Source: Rhodobacter xanthinilyticus (GTDB lineage: Bacteria; Pseudomonadota; Alphaproteobacteria; Rhodobacterales; Rhodobacteraceae). Taken from it: 64,000 bases of DNA. Shown here piece after piece: positions 24,198 to 27,447 of the stretch (position 1 is its first letter; every line of letters starts with the position of its first letter). A program made the translations under genes and the position numbers. The stretch lies in NCBI RefSeq assembly GCF_001856665.1, contig NZ_CP017781.1, positions 2,744,001 through 2,808,000 of the forward strand. Direction: 5' to 3'. The notes under the pieces are model-generated. The model saw only the letters and a program-made list of their open reading frames with translations, made no database searches and was not told the origin of the DNA.

Positions 24198-24347
24198 GGG
24201 GGGCCGTCTGCCCCCCTCTGCCTGCGGCATTCACCCCCCGAGGATATTTTCCCATCGTTGAAAAGCAGCCTCCCCCCCTCCTTCAATGATGCGAAAATAT
24301 CCCGGGGGTGAGGCCCGAAGGGCCGAGGGGGCAGCGCCCCCTGCCCC
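24198..24347. repeat. Family B palindromic repeat, full copy with GC-hairpin flanks
   Basis: Core 24231-24312: the left arm (GGATATTTTCCCATCGTTGA, 24242-24261) and right arm (TTCAATGATGCGAAAATATC, 24282-24301) face each other around a C-rich spacer. Beyond the core, CCCCCC/GGGGG tracts and a GGGGGC/GCCCCC hairpin extend the symmetry. A second full copy lies at 32188-32308. It lies in the gap before ileS. Confidence 0.8.
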
Positions 24348-24379
24348 CGCCGCTCCGCAAATCCCGCCCGATTGCGCGC

Positions 24380-24408
24380 TTGCCGCGCGCCCGCGCGCCG
24401 CCTATAAG
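24380..24408 (+). promoter_or_regulatory. Predicted ileS promoter
   Basis: TTGCCG (24380-24385), a 17-base spacer and TATAAG (24403-24408) form a good sigma-70 promoter. Initiation is predicted at 24414-24416, on the start codon of a 15-codon leader ORF, making that ORF leaderless. Confidence 0.55.
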
Positions 24409-24414
24409 GCCGCC

Positions 24415-24462
24415 ATGACGCGGCTCTTGCATATCCATCGAATTAGCGGCCCGGCGCTCTGA
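24415..24462 (+). CDS. Putative leader peptide upstream of ileS
   Basis: A 15-codon ORF encodes MTRLLHIHRISGPAL with TGA at 24460. It starts where the predicted transcript starts and carries two isoleucine codons (ATC, ATT) in the second third. Its last codons lie inside the first of two competing hairpins, the layout of a ribosome-controlled attenuator. The peptide is too short to test by homology, so this is an inference. Confidence 0.4.
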   Translation: MTRLLHIHRISGPAL

Positions 24463-24520
24463 CGCGTCAGGGTAGCCGGGACATGTGCAAAGCCTCGGGC
24501 GCGGGCCGCGCGCCCTTCCT
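24446..24520 (+). promoter_or_regulatory. Putative attenuator in the ileS leader
   Basis: Three pairings compete. Hairpin 1 pairs CCCGGC (24450-24455) with GCCGGG (24475-24480) around the palindrome CTGACGCGTCAG. Hairpin 2 pairs GGGCGCG (24497-24503) with CGCGCCC (24509-24515) and is followed by TTCCTT. Alternatively GCGGCCCG (24446-24453) pairs perfectly with CGGGCCGC (24502-24509), which excludes both. High GC makes chance pairing easy, so this is a hypothesis. Confidence 0.4.
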
Positions 24521-24540
24521 TCGATCAAGGATCTCCCCAG

Positions 24541-27447
24541 ATGTGCGCCGATACGCCCGAAACTTCTGTCGATTACCGCGACACCGTCTTCCTGCCTGAA
24601 ACCGATTTCCCGATGCGCGCGGGCCTGCCCCTGCGCGAGCCCGACTGGCTCGCCCGCTGGGAGCGCCTCGGCGTCTACGACCGGCTGCGCGAGAAGGGCC
24701 GCGCCGAGGCCCGCCCGCCCTTCGTCCTCCACGACGGCCCCCCCTATGCCAACGGCCATCTCCACATCGGCCACGCGCTGAACAAGACCATCAAGGACAT
24801 CATCGTGCGCAGCCATCAGATGATGGGCCATGACGCGCGCTACGTCCCCGGCTGGGATTGCCACGGCCTGCCGATCGAATGGAAGATCGAGGAGCAATAC
24901 CGCGCCAAGGGGCTGAACAAGGACGATGTCGACATCGTTTCCTTCCGCCAGGAATGCCGCAAATTCGCGGAAAACTGGGTCACCGTGCAGCGCGAGGAAT
25001 TCAAGCGTCTCGGCATCACCGGCAACTGGGCCGACCCTTACCTCACGATGAATTTCCACGCCGAGGCGGTGATCGCCGAGGAATTCATGAAATTCGTGAT
25101 GAACGGCGCGCTCTATCAGGGCTCGAAGCCGGTCATGTGGTCGCCGGTCGAGAAAACCGCACTCGCCGAGGCCGAGGTCGAATATCACGACCATACCAGC
25201 CACACGATCTGGGTGCGTTTCAAGCCGGTCGCGGCGCTCGAGGGCGCCTCGGTGGTGATCTGGACGACGACGCCCTGGACGATCCCGCAAAACCGCGCGG
25301 TGGCCTATAACCCGGCCATCGCCTATGGCGCCTACCGGGTCGATGCGGTGGCCGAGGGCGCGACCGCGGTGGCGGGCGAGGTGCTGATCCTCGCCGATGC
25401 GCTGGCCGAGAGCGTGCGTGGCGCCGCCAAGATCGAGGCCTTCACGCGCCTGCGCGACGTGCCGGCAGCCGAGTTCGAGGGCGTGATCCTGCGCCACCCC
25501 TACGCCGGCGTCGAGGGCGGCGCGGGCGAGTGGGATTTCGACGTGCCGCTCCTGCCGGGCGATCACGTCACCGACGACGCGGGCACGGGCTTTGTCCATA
25601 CCGCGCCCTCGCATGGCGATGACGACTATCAGCTCGGCCTGAAATTCGGCCTGAAGATGACCTACAACGTCGAGCCCGATGGCAGCTATCGCAAGGATCT
25701 GCCGCTCTTCGGCGGGCAGGCGATCATCGACGAAAACGGCAAGGACGGCCCGGCAAACGTCAGCAATATCAAACAGCTGGCCTATTGCGGCGCGCTGTTG
25801 GCCAAGGGCAAGGTGAAACATTCCTACCCGCATTCGTGGCGCTCGAAAGCGCCGCTGATCTATCGCAACACGCCGCAATGGTTCGCCGCGATCGACGTCA
25901 AACTCGCCGATGACATGGCCACCTATGGCGAGACGATCCGCGCCCGCGCGCTGAAATCGATCGAGGAGCTGGTGAAATTCACCCCGGCCACCGGCCGCAA
26001 CCGCCTCCATTCGATGATCGAGAACCGACCCGATTGGGTGCTCTCGCGCCAACGCGCCTGGGGCGTGCCGCTGACCTGCTTCGTCAAGCGCGGCGCCAAA
26101 CCGACCGACGCGGATTACCTGCTGCGCTCGGCCGAGGTGAATGCGCGCATCGTCGCCGCCTTTGAACAGGCCGGCGCCGATGTCTGGTATGAAACCGGCT
26201 TCAAGGCGCGCGTGCTCGAGGGCATCGCCGACCCGGAGGCCTATGAGCAGGTCTTCGACGTGCTCGACGTGTGGTTCGATAGCGGCTCGACCCATGCCTT
26301 CGTGCTGCGCGACCGCGCCGATGGCACCAAGGACGGCATCGCCGATGTCTATCTCGAAGGCACCGACCAACACCGCGGCTGGTTCCATTCCTCGCTCTTG
26401 CAAGCCTCGGCCACGATCGGCCGCGCACCTTATCGCAACGTCGTGACGCATGGCTTCACGCTCGACGAGAAGGGCATGAAAATGTCCAAATCGCTCGGGA
26501 ATACCGTGGCCCCGCAAGAGGTTATCGACGAATACGGCGCCGATATCCTGCGCCTTTGGGTCGCGCAATGCGACTATACCGCCGATCAGCGCATCGGCCC
26601 GAAGATCCTCAAAGGCACCGCCGACAGCTACCGCCGCCTGCGCAACACGCTGCGCTTCATGCTTGGCGCGCTGGCGGGCTTTGACGAGGCCGAACGCGTC
26701 GATCTGGCCCAGATGCCCGAGCTCGAGGCCTGGGTGCTCCACCGCCTGGCCGAGCTCGACACGGCCGTGCGCGAGGGCTACCGCAGCTTCGACTTCCAGT
26801 CGGTGTTCCAGACGCTCTTCACCTTCTCGACCGTCGATCTCTCGGCCTTCTACTTCGATATCCGCAAGGACGCGCTCTATTGCGACGCGCCCGGCTCGCT
26901 CACCCGCCGCGCCTGCCGCACGGTGATGGATATCCTGTTCCACCGCCTGACGACCTGGCTCGCGCCGATCCTGCCCTTCACCATGGAGGATGTCTGGCTC
27001 TCGCGCTTCCCGGGCGAGACGAGCTCGGTCCACCTGCAGGATTTCGCCCCGGTGCCGGCCGATTGGGCGAACCCGGCGCTTGCCGCGAAATGGGAGGGCA
27101 TCCGCCGGGCCCGCCGCGCGGTGACCGCCGCGCTCGAGGTCGAACGCACCGCCAAGGTGATCGGCGCCTCGCTCGAGGCCGCGCCGGTGGTCCATGTCGA
27201 GGATGAAACCCTCGCGAGCGCGCTGAAATCGGTGGATTTCGCCGAGCTCTGCATCACCTCGGGCCTCGCGCTCACCACCGACCCGGCCCCGGGCGAGGCC
27301 TTCCGCCTGCCCGAAATCGCCGGCGTCTCGGTGGTCTTCGAACGCGCCGAGGGCGAGAAATGCCAGCGCTGCTGGAAGATCCTGCCCGATGTCGGCGCCC
27401 ATGCGCATCCCCATACCTGCGCGCGCTGCAACGCCGCGCTGAGCTGA
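24541..27447 (+). CDS. ileS: Isoleucyl-tRNA synthetase
   Basis: The protein has 968 residues. The class I signatures are HDGPPYANGHLHIGHALNK near residue 65 (HIGH motif) and GMKMSKSLGNTVAP (KMSKS motif) near 645. The editing domain is present, and the C-terminus has a zinc ribbon (CQRCWKILPDVGAHAHPHTCARC). It charges tRNA-Ile. It is a single gene behind a possible attenuator and is followed by repeat A1. Confidence 0.98.
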   Translation: MCADTPETSVDYRDTVFLPETDFPMRAGLPLREPDWLARWERLGVYDRLREKGRAEARPPFVLHDGPPYANGHLHIGHALNKTIKDIIVRSHQMMGHDARYVPGWDCHGLPIEWKIEEQYRAKGLNKDDVDIVSFRQECRKFAENWVTVQREEFKRLGITGNWADPYLTMNFHAEAVIAEEFMKFVMNGALYQGSKPVMWSPVEKTALAEAEVEYHDHTSHTIWVRFKPVAALEGASVVIWTTTPWTIPQNRAVAYNPAIAYGAYRVDAVAEGATAVAGEVLILADALAESVRGAAKIEAFTRLRDVPAAEFEGVILRHPYAGVEGGAGEWDFDVPLLPGDHVTDDAGTGFVHTAPSHGDDDYQLGLKFGLKMTYNVEPDGSYRKDLPLFGGQAIIDENGKDGPANVSNIKQLAYCGALLAKGKVKHSYPHSWRSKAPLIYRNTPQWFAAIDVKLADDMATYGETIRARALKSIEELVKFTPATGRNRLHSMIENRPDWVLSRQRAWGVPLTCFVKRGAKPTDADYLLRSAEVNARIVAAFEQAGADVWYETGFKARVLEGIADPEAYEQVFDVLDVWFDSGSTHAFVLRDRADGTKDGIADVYLEGTDQHRGWFHSSLLQASATIGRAPYRNVVTHGFTLDEKGMKMSKSLGNTVAPQEVIDEYGADILRLWVAQCDYTADQRIGPKILKGTADSYRRLRNTLRFMLGALAGFDEAERVDLAQMPELEAWVLHRLAELDTAVREGYRSFDFQSVFQTLFTFSTVDLSAFYFDIRKDALYCDAPGSLTRRACRTVMDILFHRLTTWLAPILPFTMEDVWLSRFPGETSSVHLQDFAPVPADWANPALAAKWEGIRRARRAVTAALEVERTAKVIGASLEAAPVVHVEDETLASALKSVDFAELCITSGLALTTDPAPGEAFRLPEIAGVSVVFERAEGEKCQRCWKILPDVGAHAHPHTCARCNAALS

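Follow-up and report, generated by a model that had tools for sequence, protein, structure and literature searches.

A conserved leader with an invariant isoleucine codon and a hairpin precedes ileS in Rhodobacter xanthinilyticus and is a probable isoleucine sensor

The ileS gene encodes isoleucine--tRNA ligase. In Rhodobacter xanthinilyticus it lies within the 64,000-nucleotide (nt) stretch of DNA analyzed here (the window), and it is preceded by a short leader with a predicted open reading frame (ORF) and potential RNA hairpins; a pirin-family gene lies upstream of this leader. An original prediction, made from the letters of the window, described the leader as a ribosome-controlled attenuator in which a small peptide with isoleucine codons and mutually exclusive hairpins would govern ileS. 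Direct reading of the sequence found all of its letters in place. Comparison with related sequences indicates that this is a real, conserved isoleucine leader, wider in distribution than the prediction held, and that the predicted hairpin logic is partly right. The features of the locus are as follows.

24380 to 24408, plus strand: promoter, with -35 TTGCCG at 24380-24385, a spacer of 17 nt and -10 TATAAG at 24403-24408.
24415 to 24462, plus strand: leader ORF MTRLLHIHRISGPAL, predicted to be leaderless, with the A of its ATG at or beside the transcript start.
24439 to 24445, plus strand: invariant heptamer CGAATTA, made up of CGA (Arg), ATT (Ile) and A; the AUU at 24442-24444 is the proposed control codon.
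24450 to 24480, plus strand: hairpin P1 (hairpin 1 of the original prediction), which begins 4 nt past the heptamer and shows covariation.
24460 to 24462, plus strand: leader stop codon TGA, inside P1.
24497 to 24503 with 24509 to 24515, plus strand: second hairpin, GGGCGCG/CGCGCCC, then TTCCTT; the element ends at 24521 and is lineage specific.
24446 to 24453 with 24502 to 24509, plus strand: alternative 8-bp pairing, GCGGCCCG, an exact complement that overlaps both hairpins and is judged not conserved.
24527 to 24531, plus strand: AAGGA, the Shine-Dalgarno-like sequence of ileS, as read from the sequence.
24541 to 27447, plus strand: ileS, isoleucine--tRNA ligase, 968 amino acids (aa), assigned by NCBIfam TIGR00392 (778 bits; cut-off, 621) and Pfam.

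The leader was compared across 98 Rhodobacteraceae ileS loci that were picked by protein and not by leader. They comprise 18 genomes of the window genus, R. xanthinilyticus included, and the best 80 of 592 stretches from a scan of named genomes; L011 and L027, counted as two loci, come from one contig. The predicted 15-codon ORF, which carries both ATC and ATT isoleucine codons and whose ATG lies 6 nt past TATAAG, has homologous leader ORFs at all 98 loci, each with R-I-x-x-P-(A/V). CGA-ATT plus the trailing A was kept without exception (98/98), as was CCG at codon +4. The leader stop codon fell within P1 in 96 of the 98 Rhodobacteraceae leaders and in 28 of 31 ileS leaders from other families.

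Isoleucine is strongly enriched in front of this core. Over all 98 leaders, isoleucine made up 197 of the 686 codons in the seven positions that precede CGA; base composition predicts 36.8, and the two alternative frames gave 15 and 24. These isoleucine codons vary synonymously; at codon -2, ATC was used 33 times, ATT 29 times and ATA 12 times. A run of three or four isoleucines just before R-I was seen in 38 of the 98 leaders and no such run in 42, and the mean number of isoleucines per leader was 1.94 in the window genus (18 loci) versus 3.64 in the other 80. In 9 of the 98 leaders, the only isoleucine left was that of R-I. Because these nine leaders retain that isoleucine alone, the AUU of CGA-AUU would be the essential codon, and the control codon is probably this invariant AUU.

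As predicted, TTGCCG and TATAAG, 17 nt apart, would put the transcript start at the leader ATG, and this placement is conserved in Rhodobacteraceae. A TATA sequence was present upstream of the core at 97 of 98 loci, and at 96 of these 97 the first ATG or GTG after it (9 to 16 nt from the start of TATA) shared the reading frame of the core. ATG triplets within 75 nt upstream of the core were likewise biased by frame: 134 were in frame versus 10 and 22 in the other frames in Rhodobacteraceae, and 122 versus 19 and 8 in other families. A -10 element positioned for a leaderless start was found in 64 of the 93 Rhodobacteraceae leaders that were left after identical upstream stretches had been dropped (control, 15%) and in 54 of 89 leaders from the class (control, 14%). 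A transcript start of Methylorubrum ileS has been mapped 150 nt upstream of the gene by differential RNA sequencing (accessible text of PMC9320726). The letters of that promoter were sought in two families and found in 0 of 18 and 0 of 82 cases, and the mapped start was not tied to the motif.

Judged by covariation, P1 is the best supported RNA feature across the class; hairpin 1, placed at 24450-24480 by the original prediction, is present, conserved and covarying. In the class-level test of 89 distinct hairpins, the outer five pairs were set by the search pattern and pairs 7 to 10 were free of it. Pairs 7 to 10 each covaried (0 of 2,000 shuffles), and pair 6 did not clearly do so (102 of 2,000). 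An alignment of 30 compact hairpins, each exactly 34 nt and picked for compactness, had 94.0% of positions paired versus 82.7% after shuffling and a covariation of 0.389 versus 0.164 (0 of 500 shuffles for both); the count of double-change pairs in this alignment was ordinary (reached by 193 of 500 shuffles). P1 of Rhodobacteraceae has a bulge, and an ungapped test is weak there; pair 10 was matched by 0 of 2,000 shuffles in that test. When P1 was taken together with P2, a second hairpin described below, an alignment of 88 of the 95 distinct Rhodobacteraceae leaders (near-duplicates dropped) had 89.8% paired cells versus 86.4% in shuffles and a covariation of 0.132 versus 0.089 (0 of 500 for both).

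A DNA pattern combining the heptamer and P1 was present in 218 of 244 Rhodobacterales genomes (3 of 244 for a reversed-pattern control) and in 91 of 385 alphaproteobacterial genomes (control, 2 of 385). In a sample of the phylum, it was found in 12 of 15 Rhodobacteraceae, 31 of 71 other alphaproteobacterial genomes and 2 of 213 genomes from other classes. A miss by this pattern is no proof of absence, because leaders whose P1 contains TCGGG, as some do, are not caught by it. For ileS itself, 30 loci from 30 other alphaproteobacterial families were taken as the best 30 of 46 matches in 48 genomes. Exact CGAATTA occurred within the approximately 400 nt examined at 13 of these 30 loci, read as R-I-x-x-P in each; 3 loci had near forms and 14 had none. 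Translation of the 30 loci in three frames gave 40 R-(I/L/V/M)-x-x-P peptides. Of these, 13 had a start codon in frame as well as 5 or more ungapped pairs at the place of P1, and all 13 use CGA-ATT. Other codons are used by four further peptides that make at least 5 such pairs but lack an in-frame start; one near form has CGA-ATC and makes 4 pairs. No Rfam 15 family reached its gathering score in the window stretch or in 20 class-level loci. The T-box covariance model gave no match, and only two tRNAs reached the gathering score in the whole window; a permissive Rfam scan of 24370-24560 returned a single microRNA match (E value, 4.3).

The genes that follow the unit were clustered by their predicted proteins for 90 of about 104 distinct places outside Rhodobacteraceae (a hand count, with places that seemed to coincide with ileS omitted; the shares are approximate). 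The 90 instances comprised 35 ACT-like proteins, among which three tandem pairs are counted twice, 33 ileS, 5 P-loop kinases, 4 proteins without a family, 1 PALP enzyme and 12 ungrouped cases; several of the ungrouped cases look ACT-like by eye, and at least one (L179) resembles a chance match. The downstream protein of about 100 aa is called ACT-like tentatively. At an E value of ≤0.1, Pfam ACT_5 matched 5 and ACT_AHAS_ss matched 4 of 30 members; no NCBIfam family was found for the 2 members scanned, and no Pfam family at an E value of ≤0.01 for 3. Its profile had five matches in PDB: the best, to an unrelated leucine-rich repeat protein (E value, 0.02), and four to acetolactate synthase small subunits (E values, 0.045 to 1.3). 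In two such loci (L181 and L212), ileS comes next. The models nearest to the PALP enzyme (L204) are those of threonine ammonia-lyase, below cut-offs, and behind the ACT-like gene of L228 lies a gene that passes the cut-off for the biosynthetic threonine ammonia-lyase (TIGR01124, 477 bits; cut-off, 411). From these neighborhoods there is an apparent isoleucine regulon across Alphaproteobacteria, made up of ileS, the ACT-like protein and, in places, threonine ammonia-lyase. Isoleucyl-tRNA, named as the signal by the original prediction, is a likely one, and the presence of the unit before other isoleucine-related genes reinforces it.

Other genes recur near the unit. A further downstream cluster was present in 12 loci, as the second predicted gene in 8 of them (e.g., L180 and L215); both members scanned were DUF4743, one with a borderline NUDIX match. 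The frequent position of this DUF4743 gene downstream of the ACT-like gene suggests a conserved operon. P-loop kinase genes stand behind the unit in Rhodobacterales and other families (L114, L170-L173, L206, L230, L245, L247 and L258; the one member scanned is AAA_33), and at least five Rhodobacterales genomes have a second copy of the unit before a kinase-like gene. In four genomes of one family (L190-L193), the unit precedes a protein of about 175 aa, for which no Pfam family was found at an E value of ≤0.001 in two members scanned. Tandem copies of the unit, about 180 to 200 nt apart, precede the ACT-like gene in three genomes of one family (L244, L246 and L248).

Two observations were made beside these. 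Many leaders of ACT-like genes (ACT-type leaders; L174-L260) have (A/G)TT(C/T)G about 8 nt after P1, which could pair with CGAAU; it could instead be a codon constraint, from a V/I-R motif (e.g., V-V-V-I-R) in a leader that is read through. By eye, the unit of L236 precedes a RibF-like protein (riboflavin kinase/FAD synthetase), and a ribF-like gene seems to come before several of the ileS genes that have no leader directly in front of them.

Within its own genome, R. xanthinilyticus has one convincing copy of the leader unit, that before ileS (covariance model; genome-wide E value, 0.004; next, 0.9). An intergenic repeat of about 150 bp at 24200-24350, between the pirin gene and the leader, resembles a REP-type palindromic element. 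A search of the stretch against the genome gave 70 matches, one of them the stretch itself; the majority fall on this repeat (68 to 93% identity, both strands).

The remaining parts of the original prediction fared differently from the peptide and hairpin 1. It had read the GC-rich hairpin followed by TTCCTT as resembling a terminator, and an 8-bp pairing as exclusive of both hairpins. Comparison of the Rhodobacteraceae ileS upstream regions bore out the peptide, the isoleucine codon and hairpin 1 as conserved features but not the terminator or the 8-bp pairing. The terminator letters are present in the window, and a few sisters are the only other leaders in which this feature is strong. The 8-bp pairing is exact in the window, where complementarity between the 5′ arm of P1 and the downstream stretch is unusually strong (z score, -2.92; 60 shuffles of the downstream stretch), and some sister leaders were also low for the 5′ arm (L013, -2.73; L024, -2.19; L011, -1.98). 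Over 95 distinct leaders, however, complementarity to the downstream stretch was not above that of shuffles (mean z score, -0.20 for the 5′ arm and +0.47 for the 3′ arm). The stretch after P1 was no more stable than shuffles (mean z score, +0.09 over the 95 leaders, window included; window, -0.57). No consistent U-tract was found behind P1: the T fraction was 0.18 in the next 8 nt versus 0.16 beyond in Rhodobacteraceae (94 leaders), and in other families it was 0.25 versus 0.26 (23 ileS leaders) and 0.28 versus 0.31 (33 ACT-type leaders). Some individual leaders do reach 5 or 6 T among these 8 positions. Because there was no excess stability, no excess complementarity and no consistent U-tract after P1, the terminator/antiterminator switch is, by these comparisons, not a conserved device.

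A direct search for P2 (GGYGU/GCRCC), a second hairpin built differently from that of the window, located it in 49 of the 98 Rhodobacteraceae leaders. Its variable pair was C-G in 31, U-A in 14, U-G in 2 and unpaired in 2 of these 49 leaders (relatedness uncorrected), and by eye it is absent from the aligned Paracoccus rows. A pairing of the P2 5′ arm with ACGCC beside the ileS Shine-Dalgarno sequence was considered and dropped: by eye, the U-A versions of P2 keep ACGCC, so no compensation was seen. In the window, TCCTT-CGATC-AAGGA (24517-24531), directly 3′ of the second hairpin, could mask the ileS Shine-Dalgarno sequence in a 5-bp hairpin.

We hold it to be rather likely that this leader regulates ileS in cis, under the control of the ribosome and in response to isoleucine, with the state of P1 setting expression and a rise on starvation; the leader probably acts as a built-in sensor of isoleucine. 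If charged tRNA-Ile ran short, a ribosome would wait with AUU in its A site. This invariant codon is located 8 nt before P1. Given the usual ribosome footprint, the leading edge of the waiting ribosome would cover the first nucleotides of the P1 5′ arm and hold P1 open. With charged tRNA-Ile at hand, the ribosome would run to the stop codon inside P1 and leave, allowing P1 to form. The state of P1 would set ileS expression, which would increase on isoleucine starvation; candidate outputs are transcription termination (possibly by Rho), ileS translation and mRNA decay. A broader proposal, which we offer tentatively and with some doubt, is that an unnamed unit found throughout the class (a leaderless ORF, one AUU in CGA-AUU-A and a hairpin 8 nt on) may be a minimal isoleucyl-tRNA sensor that requires no terminator/antiterminator pair and is put to use repeatedly, with outputs that differ: before ileS the ORF ends inside the hairpin, and before ACT-like genes it often runs through into the start.

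Several results weigh against this reading. In the ungapped test within Rhodobacteraceae, P1 pairs 7 to 9 showed no significant covariation (151, 360 and 358 of 2,000 shuffles), and for P1 plus P2, two of five measures, double-change pairs and pair types, were matched by 52 and 34 of 500 shuffles. Neither a terminator nor an alternative pairing is conserved alongside P1. The exact heptamer is missing at 17 of the 30 ileS genes from other families. The CGA and the A after ATT are fixed at the nucleotide level while the residue after isoleucine varies (T/S/I/M), for which tRNA sensing alone is insufficient. The kinase and family-less targets have no known tie to isoleucine, and none of the five kinase leaders of Rhodobacterales has a -10 element placed for a leaderless start. 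Finally, of 32 ACT-type loci, 18 have an ORF that passes P1 without a stop and goes on to overlap the following start codon, and 10 have the stop codon within P1. In view of this read-through, one logic may not fit all targets, and the effect of a ribosome waiting at AUU may be opposite at ACT-type loci.

A classical transcription attenuator, with P1, a downstream terminator and an exclusive antiterminator, would share its sensor with the ribosome-controlled leader favored above, and the confidences in the two overlap; we regard it as unlikely. It would account for the leader peptide with isoleucine codons, the stop codon between the arms of P1, the covariation of P2 in 49 of the 98 Rhodobacteraceae leaders and the GGGCGCG/CGCGCCC plus TTCCTT of the window. 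Two components of such attenuators are present: a leader ORF, predicted to be translated, before the regulated gene, at all 98 loci and with a frame bias, and cognate control codons, in the invariant ATT and the isoleucine enrichment. Mutually exclusive pairings, however, stand out in the window and in just a few sisters, not across the 95 leaders, in which downstream stability was also not above shuffles; no consistent T excess marks an intrinsic terminator in the 8 nt after P1, the stretch counted (94 leaders); and P2, counted in Rhodobacteraceae only, is missing by eye from the aligned Paracoccus rows. An RNase E-like cut at GAAUU beside P1, from which a ribosome waiting on isoleucine codons would protect so that mRNA stability follows isoleucine, overlaps the favored reading as well, and we judge it improbable as a separate explanation. 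The nucleotide invariance of CGAATTA exceeds codon needs, the site is an A/U-rich single strand beside a GC-rich hairpin, and RNase E prefers RN|WUU. RNase E sites are rarely conserved so strictly, however, and the invariant C and final A would be left unexplained.

Invariance of a short single-stranded motif at a fixed distance from a hairpin, at several genes, would also be expected if a trans-acting factor (IleRS itself, another protein or a small RNA) bound CGAAUUA and P1 and the ORF were incidental. The upstream ATGs that are in frame (122 versus 19 and 8), the isoleucine run that is confined to that frame and the leaderless placement of promoters all argue against an incidental ORF, and this explanation seems quite improbable. 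That R-I-x-x-P is kept in otherwise variable peptides could reflect arrest by the nascent peptide, whose end, R-I-x-x-P-(A/V), would stall the ribosome and be tuned by isoleucine or another signal. In the 13 candidates from other families with start and hairpin, no synonymous Arg or Ile codon was used; because of this, and because P-A-L is dictated by the P1 5′ arm, the constraint is on nucleotides, and peptide arrest is highly improbable. A frameshift or peptidyl-tRNA drop-off at CGA-AUU was also considered.

If the ribosome-controlled reading is true, a common alphaproteobacterial isoleucine-sensing leader would provide a link between the charging of tRNA (ileS) and an orphan ACT-like protein and, at some loci, threonine ammonia-lyase as well. 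Orphan genes (those of the ACT-like protein, its DUF4743 neighbor and the AAA_33 kinase) would get a testable place in isoleucine physiology, and a family absent from Rfam 15 would be added. The invariant CGA-AUU-A context raises the question of how a ribosome behaves at an unfilled codon beside a hairpin.

Ribosome-mediated attenuators such as those of trp and ilv, of which pheST is a further example, likewise have, ahead of the gene under control, a leader ORF that contains cognate codons. Unlike them, the ileS unit has no conserved terminator/antiterminator pair that was found; it has one hairpin and an invariant heptamer, and its codon run is dispensable. T-box leaders of ileS in Actinobacteria are leader RNAs that sense tRNA-Ile. 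Both kinds of leader lie upstream of ileS, but the ileS unit has an ORF, predicted to be translated, and one hairpin and gives no Rfam T-box match.

No description of this ileS leader element was found in the open-access literature, a scope that leaves subscription literature largely outside, and the word ileS is absent from the main text of PMC8632094, PMC11109978, PMC6429828, PMC10117765, PMC4833913 and PMC1273637. In Caulobacter crescentus, a small coding sequence (CDS) named "ileS leader CDS," CCNA_03934, served as a negative control in an overexpression test and is not discussed as a regulator in the accessible text of PMC4117421. The trpL/rnTrpL leader of Sinorhizobium meliloti, likewise an alphaproteobacterium, has an ORF of 14 codons that is leaderless, as is predicted for the ileS leader, and differs in being a tryptophan attenuator whose accessible description does not mention a CGAAUUA core (PMC10117765). 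In Rhodobacterales, the uORFC-8-2 motif upstream of cysS has been proposed to act by ribosome-mediated control (accessible text of PMC8632094). It shares with the ileS leader the order, an aminoacyl-tRNA synthetase gene as target, an upstream ORF with cognate codons and the proposed mode of control. Its tandem Cys codons lie in the first stem, and a U run suggests a terminator (PMC8632094), whereas the ileS leader has its isoleucine codon before the hairpin and no consistent U-run. The leader in the window contains no Cys codons and stands before ileS, not cysS. Unlike uORFC-8-2 as described in that text, the ileS unit is found across the class and at several genes. The numbering in PMC8632094 implies a uORFC-8-1, which could be the same element as the ileS leader.

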